Position numbers and translations under genes: made by a program
Notes under the pieces: generated by a model
Seen by the model: the letters and a program-made list of their open reading frames with translations, nothing else
What the model was told of the DNA's origin: nothing
Database searches by the model: none
Shown: positions 1 to 12,389 of the stretch, piece by piece
Layout: every line of letters begins with the position of its first letter
Numbering within the stretch: position 1 is the first letter of the stretch
NCBI GenBank assembly: GCA_003152215.1
Contig: PLZP01000056.1
Location: forward strand, 1-46,192
Direction of reading: 5' to 3'
DNA from: Acidimicrobiaceae bacterium
GTDB taxonomy: Bacteria > Actinomycetota > Acidimicrobiia > Acidimicrobiales > RAAP-2
DNA length: 46,192 bases

Positions 1-61
1 GCTTGACAAACATAGGAGCATCACGCACCCGGCCGAGATTGCCATCCCGTTCACGCTGCGC

Positions 62-1027
62 CTATTCCTCGAAGTCTTTACCCAACGGTTCAGAGTCCAA
101 CTCGGTAAGTAATCCTGGAAAGAACAACTCGGTCCCGCTGCGAATTTCTTGCAACACTTCGCTCGGATAGCCGAGGTATGAAACGAGGTGGTGCATTGAC
201 TGATAATGCGAGATGAGCGCAACAGAAATTTGCAAGTGAAGGTCGTTCAAACTCGTCTCAGTCCGGAGCCTGTTTTCCACTCCACCGTCCAATTCGAAAT
301 ACTCCAACACGCCAATTCCGGGATGCACGCAAGCGCTGAGGTAGTAATAGAAGCCTTCCCAACTTCCCGCCCGAATCCAACGTTTTCCAAAGATCTCGGC
401 AGTCGCGCTGGGGCGTTGAAACTTCTCTTCAAATGCCTGCGGCCCGTCCTCCTCGTTGAACGTCGTTTCTCCGATCACGCTCCACTGGTTTGGCTCATTT
501 GCAACTACCGATGACGGAAACATTTGTAATACGATCGCCCTGGACTTCTTAAGTCTGTTCCTGTAGTGCTTGCGCGTGGCATCCTCCTTGCCAACCGTAT
601 GCGTGGCAGCGATGGCCATCTCGCTCGCGCCGTTTGCATCTTCCAATAGAGCCCTTGCGGCGCGCTGCTCGACGGTGGCATCGTCATCTAGGAGCCAAGC
701 GATGCGCGCGGAATACTCTTCCGCCATTCGCACTAACGGCAAGCAAGAGAATGTGATCTTTTCTTCACTACATAGTGCGCCTATTCCGCCGATCAAATCA
801 GCAACCACCACGCTCCAAGCCTGCGCCAATTGGTAAATGATGTCGAACGGATACTTTGTGCCAAACTTCGCTTCGCAGTACTCAACTTCAACTCGAAATT
901 GACTCTCCGAGATCACAGATCCCTGTTCGAACGATCGTCGTAATTGGGCAACGTAAGTCAGCATTCCAGAGACACCCAGTAGCCATGCCGAGAGCAGCGG
1001 ATGAATGTGCCATTCGTCCTCGTCCAT
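62..1027 (-). CDS. hypothetical protein (321 aa)
   Basis: Long ORF with non-repetitive, globular-looking composition; no family recognised. Lies left of the tRNA-Arg fragment. Confidence 0.6.
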   Translation of the reverse strand: MDEDEWHIHPLLSAWLLGVSGMLTYVAQLRRSFEQGSVISESQFRVEVEYCEAKFGTKYPFDIIYQLAQAWSVVVADLIGGIGALCSEEKITFSCLPLVRMAEEYSARIAWLLDDDATVEQRAARALLEDANGASEMAIAATHTVGKEDATRKHYRNRLKKSRAIVLQMFPSSVVANEPNQWSVIGETTFNEEDGPQAFEEKFQRPSATAEIFGKRWIRAGSWEGFYYYLSACVHPGIGVLEYFELDGGVENRLRTETSLNDLHLQISVALISHYQSMHHLVSYLGYPSEVLQEIRSGTELFFPGLLTELDSEPLGKDFEE

Positions 1028-1071
1028 TTATGATCACCTCCCGCCCGAGCGCCTCACCTCGAAAGGCTAAA

Positions 1072-1398
1072 TCATCGTCCGCCAATGGGTGCCCACGGCT
1101 CAACTCGCCATTCGGAGATTGTGCAAGTCGGCCCTCCGACACGGATCGGTGAAACGCGACACCAGAGCGTTTCGCCAACTTCCATACTCAGCGGTATTAG
1201 CTCAACTCTGTCGTCTGCATGTACCCTGCTGCTCCGAAGTACTGAAAGCACTTCGATCTGTTCTTCGTTATAGAGCGGCCTGTCCAACTGACCAAATGTC
1301 GGCCAGACTCCTGTGGCGTGAAAATGGTCGTAAGCGCGGGTAATTACGACGCGTTGCTCTCGACTTGAACCTTCGCCCAGAACCGACTCGTCGCTCAC
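1072..1398 (-). CDS. small hypothetical protein (108 aa)
   Basis: ORF just upstream of and co-directional with 62..1027; the text 'RAYDHFHATGVWPTFGQLDRPL' looks like a real protein N-terminus. Confidence 0.45.
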   Translation of the reverse strand: MSDESVLGEGSSREQRVVITRAYDHFHATGVWPTFGQLDRPLYNEEQIEVLSVLRSSRVHADDRVELIPLSMEVGETLWCRVSPIRVGGPTCTISEWRVEPWAPIGGR

Positions 1399-1441
1399 CC
1401 ATACCCCCTGTGGTCAACGACGTGTAGGCCGAGTCACTTGA

Positions 1442-2254
1442 ATGAGCCATGCGCTTCACAAGGGGCCAAGGAGTCGTCGCCAGACAGAAGGTATTGCGAG
1501 CAGTCAGTCGCCCTATCGACGGACCATCCGGATACAAGAACATCGCCACTGGCTTCGAGGCGCCTACTTGCCGTCTAAACATGCGCCGCAAGGGTACTCG
1601 ACGAGTAGCCGCGACCGCGGCTCGGAAAGGACACTGAGCGTGTCTATCGAAAACCCGAATGTCCGCCGCGATCGCGACGACAAAAACAAGAAGACTCGTA
1701 AGAAGAATGACCCGAAGGTTTCGCGCATTGAGCCGAGCCTGCTCCCCGTTGCCCTGGTCAACCTAACCAGAATGATGATGAACCTGGCGAACATTGACCC
1801 GGTGAACAACCCTGACATTCCGTTGATGAGGAACCCCAGTGGTTTTGTGACTACACCACGCATCAGAACGGTGGCGTATCTGGCCAAAGCTATCCTGCAC
1901 GACATCACCGTGTGCTCGTATTGCTGGAAGCCGGGTGATCTGCTGCTGGCGCCCGATGGCCTCCCCTGGGGACTCGCCCATGTGATTCCCCTCTGCAAGG
2001 GCGGAATCGAGAATCTGAGCAACATTGTCAAATGTTGCCAGACATGTAACACCTGGAAAGGCCGACGCATTGTGGCCCCACACCCCGAAACTTCCTGGGC
2101 TGCCGCTGACTCCGTAATCGGAACCGACCTATGGACGGACGCCTCCGACTTCTTCAAGGGGACCCTGGTGGTTCAGCCCTTCACCATGGAAATCGCCACG
2201 GAAGAGGAAATGACCGCCCTGACCGCACAGTGGCGACGGACGGCACGCGTCTGA
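1442..2254 (+). CDS. HNH endonuclease family protein
   Basis: HNH signature 'CSYCWKPGDLLL...AHVIPLCKGGIENLSNIVKCCQTCNTWKGRR' with two Cys pairs. The true start may be internal, e.g. GTG near 1639. Confidence 0.8.
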   Translation: MSHALHKGPRSRRQTEGIASSQSPYRRTIRIQEHRHWLRGAYLPSKHAPQGYSTSSRDRGSERTLSVSIENPNVRRDRDDKNKKTRKKNDPKVSRIEPSLLPVALVNLTRMMMNLANIDPVNNPDIPLMRNPSGFVTTPRIRTVAYLAKAILHDITVCSYCWKPGDLLLAPDGLPWGLAHVIPLCKGGIENLSNIVKCCQTCNTWKGRRIVAPHPETSWAAADSVIGTDLWTDASDFFKGTLVVQPFTMEIATEEEMTALTAQWRRTARV

Positions 2255-2259
2255 GTCTC

Positions 2260-2295
2260 AAAAGCACACCCCGTTTGTTCAAGGGGTGTGCTTTT
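2260..2295. terminator. bidirectional intrinsic terminator
   Basis: Perfect inverted repeat AAAAGCACACCCC-N10-GGGGTGTGCTTTT between the convergent genes 1442..2254(+) and 2300..2794(-), with a T run on each side. Confidence 0.85.
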
Positions 2296-2299
2296 GTTG

Positions 2300-2794
2300 C
2301 TAGCTGAGTACCTCTCGAAGAGCATCTCCGTGGTGGGGCAAGCCGGTCTCGTGAGAAACGATGGCCGAAAGCCCGGTGGCGAGCAGAGCGGAGATGAGCA
2401 GATTAACGCTCGAATTCGATGTCTCCAAAAGCCGCTTCGTGCTGGGGTCGACAAAGTTGAGATTTCCTTCGACGTGGCGGGCCAACAACTTCGCTTCGCC
2501 TAACAATTCGTCCTCGGGACGATCCCACATGCCCGTCACAATGCGAGAGGCGAGTTCGCGGATCTCCACCTGAGGGTTAAGTTTCGGGTGCGTCAGCAGG
2601 TGACGCTCTAAGAGACGACCGTTCGCGGCGCTCAGGGTGTTTATAAGACCGAATCGATCTTTGTTCGTGAGCAGAGTGTTCAGGATTGCCGAGGCGTCGA
2701 TCAACTCGGTGGTCGTGAACAGGGTGTCGGCGGCGACGGCCAGTTCAGAAGCGATTTCCGGGCTAATGGTGTGGTTGGGGGCGGCGATGTACAT
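2300..2794 (-). CDS. hypothetical protein (164 aa)
   Basis: ORF converging on the terminator; alpha-helical, Leu-rich composition; no recognised family. Confidence 0.55.
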   Translation of the reverse strand: MYIAAPNHTISPEIASELAVAADTLFTTTELIDASAILNTLLTNKDRFGLINTLSAANGRLLERHLLTHPKLNPQVEIRELASRIVTGMWDRPEDELLGEAKLLARHVEGNLNFVDPSTKRLLETSNSSVNLLISALLATGLSAIVSHETGLPHHGDALREVLS

Positions 2795-2989
2795 ACCATA
2801 GATCGTGCCTACTAGTGACCGAGCACACGAAGACTACGGCCGGCGCATCCCTGGCGCAGGGTTCGGATTGACGAGTGGGCAAATGCTGTTAATAATGGGC
2901 ACGCGTGACCGGGGCCAATCCTCGCTCACGACAAGGCAGTTGCCAATAACGACAAGGCCGTCAGCGTTGTCAGTGGAGAAAGACTTACA

Positions 2990-3032
2990 TTTTCCTAAAC
3001 CGTGTGCGCAGGTTCGAATCCTGCCGGGGGCA
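2990..3032 (+). other. 3' fragment of tRNA-Arg(CCT): candidate integrase attachment site
   Basis: TTTTCCTAAACCGTGTGCGCAGGTTCGAATCCTGCCGGGGGCA contains the anticodon loop (TTCCTAA), 3' anticodon strand, a T arm (GCAGG-TTCGAAT-CCTGC) and the 3' acceptor strand CGGGGGC+A. No matching 5' half lies upstream. Confidence 0.8.
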
Positions 3033-3089
3033 CTGCCGGGGCACGGACGGAGGCGCGTATCGCGACCTCTTGAAAACTCGAGGTCCTAG

Positions 3090-4790
3090 TCATTCGGCCA
3101 AGCGAAGCCAACGCTCTTCCGTCGCGTTCAACTCTTCTAGGAGATCGGCTAACTCCGCACCCAGTTTCGACTGTTCCGCGTGATCGGGCGAGGCCACGAT
3201 TTTCTTCGTTAGCACCGACCGTCGTCGTTCGAGACGTGCCATCTCTTTTTCGGCGTCGCGAATCTGGCGTCCGAGCGGGACGTTTGGGGTCGAGAGGGGC
3301 GCGCTTGCCCCAGTGGGCACCGGCGCACCGGCGGAGCTCTTGGTGGTTTGCGCAATCCACGCGTCGATGCCGCCGGGAACCTCAACTATCGTTCCGCTGG
3401 CCTGCACCTCGAGAAGGCGGTCGGTCGTACGACTAAGGAACGTGCGATCGTGCGAGACAACCACCAGTGTTCCGGGCCACTGACTCAAGAACTCCTCAAC
3501 GAGTCGAATGGTCTCGAGGTCGAGATCGTTGGTGGGTTCGTCGAGGAACAGGACGTTCGGGCGCAATGAGAGGGCCAAAAGCAACTGCAGTCGCCTCCGC
3601 TCGCCGCCCGAGAGATCCTTGGCTTTCGTCATCGGTAGGGCCCCAGTGAACCAAAACCGCTTCATGAGCGCGACGTCGTCGGGTGAACCGGGAATACCCC
3701 GTGGTCCGGCGACGAGTTCTTGAACCGTCGCTTCCAGGTCGAAACCACCCCCATGCTGTTCGAGGAACGAAGCCACGACCGTGGGTCCGCGCTTCACCGT
3801 TCCCTTCGAGGGTGCGAGGAGTTGGGCGAGCAGGTTTAGGAACGTCGACTTACCTGCTCCATTAGGCCCGACGACGCCGACGCGCTCTCCGGGGCCGAGA
3901 TCGAGGTTGACGTCGTGGAGGATTGGCTCTTGACCTTCGTAGGCGAAGGTGACTCCATGGGCCTTGATCACTGTGTTGCCGAGCCGCGGGACGTTGGTTA
4001 CCAGGTCGAGCGTCCCGACTCGCGCCGCGGCTTCGGGTCGAGTCGCCAAGAGGCGCCTGGCGGCGTCGAGTCGGGCTTGGGGCTTTGTGGCGCGAGCTTT
4101 GACGCCTCGGCGAAGCCACGCCAACTCAGTTCTCGCGAGATTGCGACGAATCTGCTCGGCCGTGGCCGCGTGTTCTTCGCGCTCTGCTTGGGCCTCGAGG
4201 AGTTGGGAGTAACCACCCGCGTGCACGTACGTTTTGCCTCGGTCGATTTCGACCATCCGCGTCGTGACCTGATCGAGGAGGAAACGATCGTGGCTTACTA
4301 AGACCACGGCACCTTTGAAGCTCTTGATCTGCTGTTCGAGCCATTGGATGGCGTTGAGATCCAAGTGGTTCGTTGGCTCGTCGAGAATGAGCACGTCGAG
4401 GTCCTCGCTGAAGACGCGAGCGAGTGCGACGCGCTTGAGTTGGCCACCGGAGAGGTTCTCCGTTTCGACGTCGGCTTCACTGAGCATCCCGAGGCGGTCC
4501 AGCGCGGCGTCAACTTTCCATCCGCTGCCCAGAGTTTTTCGAACCGTGCCGGTGGGCAACGTCGGTATCTGCTCCAAGAAGCCAACGTGCGCGTCACGAC
4601 CACGGCGAATGTTGCCGGAGTCTGGACTCAGCGTCCCGGCGATAATCCTGAGCAGCGTCGTCTTGCCAACGCCATTGATGCCCACCACGCCGATTCGATC
4701 TCCCGAGGAGATGGTTAACGACAGATTCTCTAACAGAGTTCGGTCGGCGCCTTCGAGGGTGACCTCTTGGAGGTCGACGAGAATTGTCAC
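3090..4790 (-). CDS. ABC-F family ATP-binding protein (Uup-like)
   Basis: Two ABC ATPase domains (GINGVGKTT / GPNGAGKST), LSGGQ and LSGGE signatures, two Walker B 'LDEPTN' motifs, no transmembrane segments and a charged C-terminal tail. Confidence 0.92.
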   Translation of the reverse strand: MTILVDLQEVTLEGADRTLLENLSLTISSGDRIGVVGINGVGKTTLLRIIAGTLSPDSGNIRRGRDAHVGFLEQIPTLPTGTVRKTLGSGWKVDAALDRLGMLSEADVETENLSGGQLKRVALARVFSEDLDVLILDEPTNHLDLNAIQWLEQQIKSFKGAVVLVSHDRFLLDQVTTRMVEIDRGKTYVHAGGYSQLLEAQAEREEHAATAEQIRRNLARTELAWLRRGVKARATKPQARLDAARRLLATRPEAAARVGTLDLVTNVPRLGNTVIKAHGVTFAYEGQEPILHDVNLDLGPGERVGVVGPNGAGKSTFLNLLAQLLAPSKGTVKRGPTVVASFLEQHGGGFDLEATVQELVAGPRGIPGSPDDVALMKRFWFTGALPMTKAKDLSGGERRRLQLLLALSLRPNVLFLDEPTNDLDLETIRLVEEFLSQWPGTLVVVSHDRTFLSRTTDRLLEVQASGTIVEVPGGIDAWIAQTTKSSAGAPVPTGASAPLSTPNVPLGRQIRDAEKEMARLERRRSVLTKKIVASPDHAEQSKLGAELADLLEELNATEERWLRLAE

Positions 4791-7091: not shown

Positions 7092-9452
7092 TCATACTAG
7101 CGACGGCCCCTCAGTGCTATTGGATATCGGTAACTCGAACCAAAAGGTCGATCCCGCGTCGACCTCGGTCTCAAAGCCAAGTTTGCCGCCCATGGCCTCA
7201 ACAAGGGTCTTCGAGAGTGTCAGTCCGAGTCCGGTGCCTTCGATGCCACGAGACTCCGCATCGAGACGATCGAAGGCGGTGAACAGTCGCTCGCGAAGGT
7301 CGGGTGCGATGCCAAAGCCCGTATCCGACACTGAGAATCTCACGGTGTTCCCATGCAAATTGCACTGGATCGTGACGCTGCCGTGGCTGCGGTTGTACTT
7401 GATCGCATTGGAGAGCAGGTTCAGTATGACCTGCTTCAGACGCAAGTGGTCGGCGAGCACGGCGTAGTCGAAGGAATCGTTGAAGCCAATGTCGACGCCG
7501 CGCTCCTGCGCTTGAGGACCAATGATGTCAAGGCACTCGGACACGACTTCGTGCAGATTGACCGACTCTGGCGTCAGACCGATGTGGCCGCTCTCGACGC
7601 GCGAGATGTCGAGGACTTCATTGATCAACGTAAGGAGGTGCTGCCCGGACTTGTAGACGTGGTCGACGAGTTCTAGGTCGTCAGGGGACTGAAGTTCCAT
7701 TTGAAGAATCTGAGCGAATCCGAGGACCGAATTCAGCGGCGTCCTTAGTTCGTGGCTCATTCGCGACATGAATTCGCTCTTTGCCGCGTTGGCCCGCTCG
7801 GCTTCTTCCTTCGCGGCCGCCAAATCCTCCTCGGCGCCAACGGTGTTTGACACATCGCGCGAGACGAGCACGGCGCGATAAGACTCGCCATCTTCGTCGC
7901 GAAGTAGTCGTCCGCGTGTCTCAATAATGAGCCATCGACCGTCTGCGTGGAGGGCCCGGAAACGATAACTCATCAATTCTTCGTTCCCTTGGGCGAAGAG
8001 ACGTTCCAATTGCGCGACCACTCGAGCCTGATCGTCGGGGTGCATGATCGACATTGCGCTTTGACCCATGCGCTCTTCTTTGGGATAGCCGTAGATTCTC
8101 TCGGTGCCAGGGCTGGCTTCAAGAATCTTGAAGTTTCGGTCAATGACGACAATGGAGTCCGGCGCGGCGTCGAGAATCGCTTTCGTCTTGGAGAAACTTC
8201 GGGCCAACGCGACTTCCCACGCCACCGACTCGGTGATATCGCGAGAGATGAAGACCAACCTCGACGGTGGACCAACGCCGTCGCGAAGTGTTCGACCACG
8301 AATTTCCAACGTCACGATGTGGCCGTCGCGGTGATTCATTTGACAACGAAGGGCAACGGCTTCGTCTCGTTCGAAGGCGGTTCGGAATGATCGTTCCACA
8401 AATTCGCGATCATCGGCCACCACGAATTCGGTTACGAATCGCCCCACGCGGTCCGATGCGGGTACGCCGTGTAGCTCCCGCGTCCCGGGACTGGCCTCAA
8501 GAATAAAGAGATTGCGGTCGATGACGATGATGGAGTCGGTCGCGGCGTCAAGGATTGCCTGTGTAGTTTCTCTACTCTCAGCGAGGTCCGCTTCTGCGGC
8601 GACGTTGTTCGTGATGTCGCGAGCGATGAACACTGCTTGGTGAAAATCCCCGTCGGCGCGTTGGAGTGCTCGTCCGCGCGCCTCCACTACCATCCAGTGT
8701 CCATCCGCGTGCTGGGCTCGGAATCGAAACCCCACAATGTTGTCGCTATCCTGGTCGAACGTTTTTTTGAGCATCTCCTCCACGTCGGCACGATCTTCGG
8801 GATGGATAAGAGTGAATACGCTGGCACCGTTAGCGACTTCGTCGGGGAATCCAAAGAAATTCTGTCCTTGCGGACTGTTGCGCGCGACCACCATGTCGCG
8901 GTCAATGATCACAGTGAGGTCTGCTGCCGCCGCGAAAATGGCCTTGGTCATCTCAATGACCTCGGCGAGTTCGTTGACATCTTCGTTGCGAGCCGTCACG
9001 TCGCGGCCCGTCGCGTAGATCAGATTGTCTCGACGCTGGGACGTCCACTCGATCCATCGATACGAACCGTCACTGGCTCGGATTCGATTCTCGAATCCGG
9101 CGCGAAGGCCCTCTGGGCTCTGCCATTCAGCCTCGGCTTCGGCGATCGTCTTCGCGACATCGTCGGGATGCACGAGTTCGATGAATTTCTGGCCCTTCAT
9201 TGCGTTGACGTCCCACCCAAGGAGCTGCTGCCACGCCGGATTGGTAAACCCGAGTCGTCCGCCGGGCTCGTACACCGACAAGAGGTCAGCGGAGTTCCAG
9301 AAGTACTGGTCCAGATCAGGTGCCGAAGTGCCGCTCTTTGACACCGAAGTGGCGTGGGTACGCGCCACTGCGCGCTTGCGTGCTCGGCGATCACTCAATT
9401 TTGGCCACACACCCCAACTTACAGTTCGTGCAACTTCATTTAGAACCATCAT
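7092..9452 (-). CDS. multi-PAS sensor histidine kinase
   Basis: Four PAS-like repeats, H-box 'FMSRMSHELRTPLNSVLGFAQIL', N box 'NLLSNAIKYN', G1/G2 boxes 'DTGFGI' and 'GTGLGLTLSK'. Confidence 0.95.
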   Translation of the reverse strand: MMVLNEVARTVSWGVWPKLSDRRARKRAVARTHATSVSKSGTSAPDLDQYFWNSADLLSVYEPGGRLGFTNPAWQQLLGWDVNAMKGQKFIELVHPDDVAKTIAEAEAEWQSPEGLRAGFENRIRASDGSYRWIEWTSQRRDNLIYATGRDVTARNEDVNELAEVIEMTKAIFAAAADLTVIIDRDMVVARNSPQGQNFFGFPDEVANGASVFTLIHPEDRADVEEMLKKTFDQDSDNIVGFRFRAQHADGHWMVVEARGRALQRADGDFHQAVFIARDITNNVAAEADLAESRETTQAILDAATDSIIVIDRNLFILEASPGTRELHGVPASDRVGRFVTEFVVADDREFVERSFRTAFERDEAVALRCQMNHRDGHIVTLEIRGRTLRDGVGPPSRLVFISRDITESVAWEVALARSFSKTKAILDAAPDSIVVIDRNFKILEASPGTERIYGYPKEERMGQSAMSIMHPDDQARVVAQLERLFAQGNEELMSYRFRALHADGRWLIIETRGRLLRDEDGESYRAVLVSRDVSNTVGAEEDLAAAKEEAERANAAKSEFMSRMSHELRTPLNSVLGFAQILQMELQSPDDLELVDHVYKSGQHLLTLINEVLDISRVESGHIGLTPESVNLHEVVSECLDIIGPQAQERGVDIGFNDSFDYAVLADHLRLKQVILNLLSNAIKYNRSHGSVTIQCNLHGNTVRFSVSDTGFGIAPDLRERLFTAFDRLDAESRGIEGTGLGLTLSKTLVEAMGGKLGFETEVDAGSTFWFELPISNSTEGPSLV

Positions 9453-9485
9453 TCCGAGATCGATTAGTGGACGTTCTCCTCGAAA

Positions 9486-9524
9486 CAGGAATCCGGCCCG
9501 CCAAGTGGGCGGACCGGATTCCTG
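9486..9524 (-). terminator. intrinsic terminator downstream of the repeat-protein gene
   Basis: CAGGAATCCGGCCCGCC-loop-GGGCGGACCGGATTCCTG, followed on the minus strand by TTTCG; sits between 9549..12389(-) and 7092..9452(-). Confidence 0.75.
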
Positions 9525-9548
9525 CGGAGCCAGGCTCCTTCGTTGTAA

Positions 9549-12389
9549 CTATTGACTCTTGGTGCTCAATACGACCGTCGAGTTCCTCGCCGACGTGTTG
9601 AAGTGCAGCTGAACCCTCACGCGAAGTCGCTGCGTGAGGTACTTGTCGGCGGCCGCCGCACGACTGCGTGCCAGGCGAAGGTTGCCCTTGGCGTAGGCGG
9701 TGATCGACACGACAGAGTGCGTGGTCAACTTACGAATCAGCACGATGATCTGCGTGCGACCGGCGCCCGAGAGTGCACTGGTGTTGCCGGCGAACCTAAT
9801 TCGCACGGCCCCAGGAATCGGGAGCTTCGCGAACGTCACGGTCGTGGCTGACGACGAGATGGTCGCGTACGTCGAGTCGTTAGCCTTGGTCGCGGTAACG
9901 AGGCACGTACCAGCGGTGGCGGACTTGAGCGTGGCGCCCGAGAGAGCGCACCCCGTGGCCGAACCGTTGGTGACCGCGTAGGTCAGAGCGCCCGTACCGG
10001 AACCGCCGCTGGTGTGCAAGGCGAACGTGCGGCCGTAGGTCGCACGAACTGAAGTGACCGCGAGGGCCGCCTGCGCCATGCCAGTGGTGATGGTCTTGGT
10101 GTCAAGGACACGCAGCGCGTCGCCCGAGTAGGTCAGCGTGTAGGCCGTGCCCGGCGTTCCGGTCAAGGTCAGGCCACTGAACGTGGCCACACCGGCCACG
10201 AAGTTGGCGGTTGCACCGGCCGTGACTGTGCCACCCACGCCCGCGGTGATTGCCGCGGTCGCCGCACCGGTTACGACGGTTGTGACGACGTTGCCGCCGG
10301 TGTCCTCAACCTTGATGACCGGCTGTGAAGCGAGCGCAACGCCCGTCGCAACGGACGCACTGGGTTCGGTCGTAATGACGAGCTGCGAAGGCGCGCCCAC
10401 GGTGACCGCGACACTCGTCGAGACCGCAGATGTGAGAGCACCATCTGAGAACGTCACCGTGTAGGAACCGGTAGGTGCGTTCACGGTGAATCCAGAGTAA
10501 GTGGCGACGCCAGCGACAGCAACTTTTGTTGCCGGTGTCACGGAGACGCCACCGGTCGAAATTGAGGCGGTGATGGTTGACACGTCGGTCGCAGCGACGT
10601 TCCCCGCAACATCTTCAACCTTTACAACTGGCTGTTGTGCAAGTACGGCACCACTGGCGGTCGTTGCTGACGGCTGGGTCGTGATGACGAGTTTCGCCGC
10701 GGCGCCTGCGCCTACGGTGATCGGCGTCGAGATTACCGACGTCACACCGGGACCGCTAAAGGTCAGCGTGTACGGGCCAACGAGCTCATTCAGCGTCAAA
10801 CCGGTGAACGTCGCGAGTCCCGTCGTAGCGGACACGACGGCAGTGTTGTTCGTCACGGTGCCCACGGCACTGGTCACGGTCGCGGTAACCGTCGACGTGT
10901 TGCCCAAGATGGCGTTACCACCAACATCTTCAACCTTTACAACTGGCTGTTGTGCAAGGACGGCGCCACTGGCGGTCGTTGCTGACGGCTGGGTCGTGAT
11001 GACGAGTTTCGCCGCGGCGCCTGCGCCTACGGTGATCGTTGTCGAGACAGCCGACGTCAAACCACCATCGGTGAACGTCAAGGTGTAAGCAGCGGCGGGC
11101 GCATTCAACGTGAGGTTGCTGAAGGTCGCGACACCGGCTATTGCCACGGCAGTGCCGTTCACTACGGTTCCGCCGCCCGACGTAAGTGTTGCGGTCACCG
11201 TGGAGGCGTTACTGGTAATCGTGTTACCACCCGAGTCTTGAATGTCGATGACCGGTTCCTGTGTAAGCGCTGCACCAGCCGAGGCCGTTGCAGAAGGCTG
11301 CGTGGCGATGCCCAACTTGGCGGCGGTGCCAGCGGCGACCACCGTCTGAGCGACGGTCGTGGCCGAGGCGAGTGCGCCATCGGTGAAGATGATGCTGTAC
11401 GAGCCGGTAGGTGCGTTGATCGCAAGACCCGAGAAGTTCGCCGCGCCCTGCACGGCGGCCTTGGTATTAGCCGAGATTGAGGAGCCGACCGGACCTGCCA
11501 CGAGCTCCGCGGTGACGGTCGAGGTATCGCCCTTCAAGATCGCGCCGCTGGTGTCGGTGACGTCGACGGCTGGTTGGACCGCGAGGGCGGCACCACTGGT
11601 GGCGGCGAGCGACGGCGGCGTGGCAATTACCAATTTCGCACCTGGACCAGTAATGCCAATGGTGCCAGACGCAATGGTCGGCAGCGCACCATCAGTGAAC
11701 GTCAAGCCGGCAATCGTGGTGTCGAGTGGCGCCGTAATGGCGAGACCACTGAACGTCGCGACACCTGCGGTCACGGTCTTCGTGGCATTGGCCAATGACG
11801 TCCCCGACGTCGTGAACGAGGCGGTCACGGTCGAGGAGTTGTCCGACGTCACAATGTTGCCGCCGGAGTCCACGACGTCAATGACGGGTTGAGGCGCGAG
11901 AGCGACGGTGTCGATTGCACCAGCAGGTACGGTCGCGGCACCAGTAAGTTTGGCGGCGGCACCGACGGAAACAGTGACCGTGTTCGATGCGGCAGACGCC
12001 GCCGGGTCGGCGCTGTCACTAAAGGTCAACGTATAGGGACCGGCCAAGGCATTGAGCGCAACGTTGGTGAACGTGGCAACGCCACTCGCGACGGTCGCGG
12101 TGCCGGACACCGACACGCCCCCGGAAGTGATCGTTACGGTGACAGGCCCGGTTGCACCGGAATCGGGAGTGTTGCCCGTGTTATCGATGTCGACCACCGG
12201 CTGCTGTACGAGGACAGCGCCACTGGCGTCCGTCGCGGAGGGCTGCGTTACGACCACCAAGTGGTACGGCGCTGCGGCTGAAGCGGTGGTCGCGAGTCCG
12301 ACGAGAAAGGTTGCGCCGAGCAGCGCGCTGGCGACGAGTGTGCGTGTGAACACGTGACGCCTTAATACGAATATCTTTTGTGTGTGCAT
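9549..12389 (-). CDS. secreted tandem-repeat protein with OmpA-like C-terminal region
   Basis: Signal peptide 'VFTRTLVASALLGATFLVGLATTASAA'. Seven ~95-105 aa repeats of the type 'AKLVITTQPSATTASGAVLAQQPVVKVEDVGGN...TFSGLTL...YTLTF'. C-terminus 'LSGAGRTQIIVLIRKLTTHSVVSITAYAKGNLRLARSRAAAADKYL'. Confidence 0.85.
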   Translation of the reverse strand: MHTQKIFVLRRHVFTRTLVASALLGATFLVGLATTASAAAPYHLVVVTQPSATDASGAVLVQQPVVDIDNTGNTPDSGATGPVTVTITSGGVSVSGTATVASGVATFTNVALNALAGPYTLTFSDSADPAASAASNTVTVSVGAAAKLTGAATVPAGAIDTVALAPQPVIDVVDSGGNIVTSDNSSTVTASFTTSGTSLANATKTVTAGVATFSGLAITAPLDTTIAGLTFTDGALPTIASGTIGITGPGAKLVIATPPSLAATSGAALAVQPAVDVTDTSGAILKGDTSTVTAELVAGPVGSSISANTKAAVQGAANFSGLAINAPTGSYSIIFTDGALASATTVAQTVVAAGTAAKLGIATQPSATASAGAALTQEPVIDIQDSGGNTITSNASTVTATLTSGGGTVVNGTAVAIAGVATFSNLTLNAPAAAYTLTFTDGGLTSAVSTTITVGAGAAAKLVITTQPSATTASGAVLAQQPVVKVEDVGGNAILGNTSTVTATVTSAVGTVTNNTAVVSATTGLATFTGLTLNELVGPYTLTFSGPGVTSVISTPITVGAGAAAKLVITTQPSATTASGAVLAQQPVVKVEDVAGNVAATDVSTITASISTGGVSVTPATKVAVAGVATYSGFTVNAPTGSYTVTFSDGALTSAVSTSVAVTVGAPSQLVITTEPSASVATGVALASQPVIKVEDTGGNVVTTVVTGAATAAITAGVGGTVTAGATANFVAGVATFSGLTLTGTPGTAYTLTYSGDALRVLDTKTITTGMAQAALAVTSVRATYGRTFALHTSGGSGTGALTYAVTNGSATGCALSGATLKSATAGTCLVTATKANDSTYATISSSATTVTFAKLPIPGAVRIRFAGNTSALSGAGRTQIIVLIRKLTTHSVVSITAYAKGNLRLARSRAAAADKYLTQRLRVRVQLHFNTSARNSTVVLSTKSQ
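10607..10723 (+). repeat. near-identical direct repeat copy A within 9549..12389
   Basis: About 117 bp matching 10922..11038 with about 2 mismatches by eye; offset 315 bp (105 codons). Confidence 0.85.
10922..11038 (+). repeat. near-identical direct repeat copy B within 9549..12389
   Basis: Second copy of the 117-bp repeat (CAACATCTTCAACCTTTACAACTGGCTGTTGTGCAAG...GCGCCTACGGTGATCG). Confidence 0.85.

Follow-up and report, generated by a model that had tools for sequence, protein, structure and literature searches.

In the Islander collection, 2083 of 3919 islands belong to sublocation class A (insertion at the anticodon loop) and 3760 show a 3' fragment (PMC4383910), and islands of reverse orientation, which displace the 5' half of the tRNA instead, number 159 of 3919 (PMC4383910). 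Elements of this reverse orientation are known from Zhao and Williams 2002, which we take here as cited in PMC6563490. In this work we analysed a stretch of 46,192 nucleotides (hereafter the window) from the genome of an Acidimicrobiaceae bacterium (GCA_003152215.1, contig PLZP01000056.1), whose positions 2991-3033 are very probably the right attachment site (attR) of a tyrosine-integrase island inserted in the anticodon loop of tRNA-Arg(CCT). The locus resembles the Islander tRNA islands in having a direct-orientation 3' fragment and an intact tRNA at the ends, an integrase beside the restored tRNA and a crossover in the anticodon loop, and differs from them in that its ends are split between two contigs of a draft MAG and that its tRNA has also been invaded on the 5' side. 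Compared with the reverse-orientation elements, the element in the window is of the ordinary 3' type (its fragment is a 3' half, the 5' halves being found at other elements of the genus), whereas the 5'-side elements of the genus are alike in displacing the 5' half and supplying a new 5' half with upstream sequence, and differ in that their scars are frequent and stand in tandem at one tRNA. An island inserted in a tRNA is a known kind of event, and the added point is the two-sided use of the same seven bases within the genus.

The features around the junction, in window coordinates, are the following (C14 denotes another contig of the same genome, and the G numbers other genomes):

1..2990, no strand: right end of the integrated element, low in GC and with cargo not common to the genus; the rest lies on C14 (1-13797) and possibly also in unassembled DNA between
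62..1027, minus strand: ORF of 321 aa, no family, within the element
1072..1398, minus strand: ORF of 108 aa, no family, within the element
1442..2254, plus strand: HNH endonuclease-like gene (PF14279/PF01844 above cut-off), cargo at the right end of the element
2300..2794, minus strand: ORF of 164 aa, no family, the element's gene closest to attR
2955..2990, plus strand: probable element-derived P side of attR, adjoining the crossover, of which 29 bp match the P side at the right end of the G023 island
2991..3033, plus strand: probable attR core, the displaced tRNA-Arg(CCT) 3' half from the anticodon loop (TTCCTAA) to the 3' end, collinear with the G114 empty site from 2991
2992..2998, plus strand: TTCCTAA, the 7-nt anticodon loop and putative strand-exchange (overlap) region, the sole stretch common to all undecayed 3'-half and 5'-half fragments that were read in the genus
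3034..3089, no strand: native chromosomal flank of the tRNA (B' side), inside the G114 empty-site alignment
3090..4790, minus strand: ABC-F ATPase gene, the first chromosomal gene past the element

The segment at 2991-3033 (plus strand, TTTCCTAAACCGTGTGCGCAGGTTCGAATCCTGCCGGGGGCAC) repeats exactly, over 43 bp (E 5.6e-16), the 3' half of this genome's tRNA-Arg(CCT), where the corresponding positions are C14:13755-13797 (43/43 identity). An earlier note, made from the letters of the window, had recognised here the 3' end of this tRNA from the anticodon loop onwards, and the comparison bears it out with the coordinates moved one base to the right of the 2990-3032 then given. The note had also read the truncated end as the scar of a tyrosine integrase, and had taken the DNA to the left of about 2990 as mobile, or formerly so, and the core chromosome as beginning at the ABC-F gene; all three readings gained support. 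The first is supported by the intact tRNA with its integrase and by an empty site in G114, all described below. For the second, the left side is accessory in content, the HNH gene having no match in any of the 99 other genomes of the genus nor in plasmids, and its GC (0.556) is lower than in any 2990-bp segment on the chromosome side (minimum 0.578, mean 0.611). Swings of AT skew in the window were considered as a separate signal and rejected, since several ORFs with T-rich coding strands account for them. These results fix, in a largely uncultured soil lineage, where a mobile island with defence genes ends; annotating the genes of 1-2990 as core would be wrong there.

On the chromosome side, an ABC-F orthologue is present in 67 of 100 genomes of the genus (E <= 1e-180). 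The earlier note had proposed a comparison with related genomes lacking the content of 1-2990, and among about 100 genomes of the genus such an empty site was found in G114, where an intact tRNA-Arg(CCT) (contig C14 of that genome, 1133-1205) is followed after 37 bp by the ABC-F gene (3' end first), oriented as in the window. The alignment of this DNA with the window starts exactly at 2991 and runs unbroken to 4129 (the end of the short G114 contig) with 83.8% identity. In G007, G048 and G054 the 3' end of the ABC-F gene adjoins short or decayed remnants of the tRNA 3' half, which suggests that the site has been used repeatedly. The relative order of the two genes varies: in several genomes of the genus (G019, G022, G057, G043, G071, G021, G052) the ABC-F gene lies 5' of the tRNA and divergent from it, and in the genome studied here (G000) and in G114 it lies instead 3' of the tRNA and convergent with it, as it lies beside 3' remnants in G007, G048 and G054. 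One possibility is that the tRNA moved together with its flanking elements.

The other end of the island is found on C14, which carries the only intact tRNA-Arg(CCT) of the genome (C14:13752-13828, minus strand, called by ARAGORN; 63.9 bits against the Rfam tRNA model). Downstream of this tRNA and on its strand come, within about 1.8 kb, a 59-aa HTH_17/AlpA-like protein, likely an excisionase, and then a tyrosine integrase gene (Phage_integrase, PF00589 at 1.3e-14; C14:12030-13391, about 0.4 kb downstream of the tRNA). The sequence of the integrase (about 445-453 aa) shows all of the R, K, R, H and Y residues that a tyrosine recombinase should have, and the enzyme's relatives among phage integrases are distant (about 24-26% identity); a single-protein search of genome contigs returned none. 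The earlier note had placed an intact tRNA and an integrase to the left of the scar and had proposed searching for such a tRNA with the same 43-bp end: the tRNA is present with the integrase directly downstream, so that this part of the claim holds, and the leftward position, the pair being on another contig, can only be presumed. Further along C14 there are adjacent type III modification and restriction genes (MTase_III, C14:6797-8467, 1.5e-137; REase_III, 8464-10890, 2.9e-63), which together form a type III system, as well as an Abi_2/AbiD protein, an N6 adenine methyltransferase and several ORFs without family. Like anti-phage islands, this cargo matches PADLOC models (MTase_III, REase_III and AbiD), and the type III restriction-modification, AbiD, methyltransferase and HNH genes would serve phage defence.

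C14 and the window fragment most likely represent attL and attR of a single integrative island, whose ends we infer to be joined and whose length is at least 16.7 kb (at least 13.75 kb on C14 plus 2.99 kb in the window). The genome, a draft of 127 contigs, holds both an intact target tRNA and a displaced 3' fragment identical to it, with their relative orientation across the contig gap presumed; it also has an integrase near one end of the element, with an empty site in a relative. The two contigs have no end-to-end overlap and are not joined in the assembly, and a search of the genome with C14:1-600 for a bridging contig returned only C14:1-600 itself. C14 terminates within an ORF bearing a HELAHVLGL metalloprotease-like motif and, since it ends inside a gene, the assembly lacks some of the DNA that separates C14 from the window. 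No arm-type repeats common to the C14 end and the window end were found above chance.

In the proposed mechanism, the element would bring its own copy of the tRNA 3' half, and strand exchange within TTCCTAA would join the chromosomal 5' half to this copy, so that a working tRNA would be restored beside the integrase (on C14) and the original 3' half pushed to the far end (in the window), next to the ABC-F gene. The C14 integrase would have made this insertion. By analogy with characterised tRNA-targeting integrases and with Islander sublocation A, the loop TTCCTAA (nt 32-38 of the tRNA) would be the overlap region of the exchange; in every undecayed 3' fragment read from the genus (a decayed remnant in G054 was left out of this comparison) the identity to the tRNA begins at nt 29 to 32, that is, at or just before the loop.

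Two homologous islands, in G023 and G070, have both ends on one molecule, unlike the island studied here with its ends on separate contigs. On contig C10 of G023 the intact tRNA and the integrase stand at 51.9-50.3 kb and the tRNA 3' half at 33.2 kb, giving an island of about 18.6-18.7 kb in which the integrase, 0.35 kb downstream, runs in the direction of the tRNA (it is a homologue of the C14 integrase, with 37% identity) and the cargo includes a complete type I restriction-modification system. The 29 bp to the left of its 3' half match the P side of the window, and none of 20,000 shuffles gave a match as good. The G070 island spans 9.8 kb of contig C3, which contains its tRNA, its integrase and the 3' half. 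Judged from membership of the gene families, elements of this family seem to transport cargo that varies and is mostly defensive.

Several elements may also have accumulated in tandem. Because the ends lie on unjoined contigs, the left end of the window could belong to a second element downstream of the one on C14, in which case the C14 integrase would not be the maker of this attR. There are examples of accumulation in relatives of this genome (G008 has two 5' fragments, one contig of G025 several 3' halves, and G054 a double 3' remnant). We regard this arrangement as possible but rather unlikely, since a single 3'-half CCT fragment was found in the genome and since the P side of the window resembles the end of the G023 island, whose 3'-side integrase is the homologue of that on C14. 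As a separate observation, the G025 contig (C186:17106-47815, L020, in another family) holds four tRNA-Arg 3'-half matches within 31 kb, which suggests tandem islands there too.

The P side bears on the remaining alternatives to a single island with an ordinary attR. One is that the attP had once contained a complete tRNA copy whose 5' half degenerated later, and both in the window and in G023 the P side is weakly like a tRNA D arm; this likeness to the tRNA 5' half is marginal against shuffles (p about 0.02-0.05) and the 3' fragments of G021, G053, G107 and G070 have P sides that are not tRNA-like, which makes a decayed full tRNA improbable. Still less probable, to a degree that we consider very low, is a chimera in which unrelated contigs were fused at the 43-bp repeat. 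A repeat of this length can mislead short-read assemblers and many contigs of the genus break at tRNA-Arg(CCT), but the P side agrees with the right end of the complete G023 island, that is, in two independent assemblies, which argues against misassembly; moreover, the right flank is collinear with G114 and the same junction of the ABC-F gene with tRNA remnants recurs in G007, G048 and G054. Finally, that 2960-3033 is a second functional tRNA-Arg(CCT) gene is hardly credible, for although ARAGORN calls a tRNA-Arg(cct) there and the 5' side has the marginal likeness just mentioned, window 2960-3032, whose acceptor, D and anticodon stems contain mispairs, scores 18.9 bits against the Rfam tRNA model (gathering threshold 29), short of a full cloverleaf, and the 63.9-bit gene is present elsewhere in the genome.

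The ARAGORN call was therefore rejected as a false positive, and it arises because the intact 3' half is combined with a P side of weak tRNA likeness; an annotation made automatically would go wrong at this point. The same low score agrees with the earlier note, which had held that the 5' strand and the rest of the tRNA were missing, and no Rfam family reached its gathering threshold anywhere in the window.

Besides the single island with its attR in the window, the genus shows invasion of the same tRNA from the opposite side. At least 27 displaced 5' halves of tRNA-Arg(CCT), all cut at the 7-nt anticodon loop, occur in about 19 genomes of the genus (25 were read out and two more come from G008; G102 and G018 were left out as possible contig-end cuts), and these fragment counts are lower bounds, with possibly a few intact tRNAs among them that a contig end has cut. 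Example loci are L100-L119, L123-L125, L127, L072 (G005) and L071 (G008). The identity of the 5' halves to the tRNA extends from nt 1 (or 6) through nt 38 and then gives way to divergence, and the segment they have in common with the 3' fragments is TTCCTAA. Islands of this 5'-half kind are rare in Islander, yet frequent at the tRNA-Arg(CCT) of this genus.

In G008, G009, G023, G055 and G077 an integrase gene lies divergently upstream of the tRNA (loci L065, L064, L063, L077 and L078). These five integrases form one clade with 100/100 support, apart from the 3'-side integrases, including that of the element in the window. Named relatives with a 5'-side integrase are Acidimicrobiaceae MAGs (with 'palsa' and 'fen' in their isolate names) and one Actinomycetes MAG. 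The G008 enzyme (L065:1483-2865) reads KHFVKRV where its relatives have KHYVKRV, with phenylalanine in place of the expected catalytic tyrosine, and may be inactive.

The genome studied here appears to have been invaded in this way as well. An 8-nt 5' stub lies on C14 (L004:16745), separated from the intact tRNA downstream by 2.9 kb that include a pentapeptide-repeat gene; the flank of the stub is common to G054 and G005, and the present upstream sequence of the tRNA is similar to that of 5'-side elements. We take the stub as the remnant of a 5'-side insertion.

Taken together, a two-sided hot spot is, in our judgement, a probable description of this tRNA: two branches of one integrase family would use the same 7-nt crossover with opposite chirality, one branch replacing the 3' half and the separate, well-supported clade replacing the 5' half together with the upstream sequence, so that islands would stack on both sides of an essential tRNA whose promoter would come repeatedly from mobile DNA. 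The less ordinary part is the density and tandem stacking of 5'-side elements at a tRNA which also takes 3'-side islands, and a search of the open-licence literature (weak evidence in itself) returned no paper describing such dense, two-sided use of one tRNA. At this site, tRNA-targeting integrases of one family can be set side by side to learn what makes an element carry and restore the 5' half of a tRNA or its 3' half.

A last observation concerns contig C24 of G048 (L097:1970-2009), where a tRNA-Arg(CCT) has suffered an internal deletion that leaves a 17-nt 5' stub fused to a 21-nt 3' piece, near an upstream flank of the 5'-element type; it is possibly the scar of an imprecise loss.
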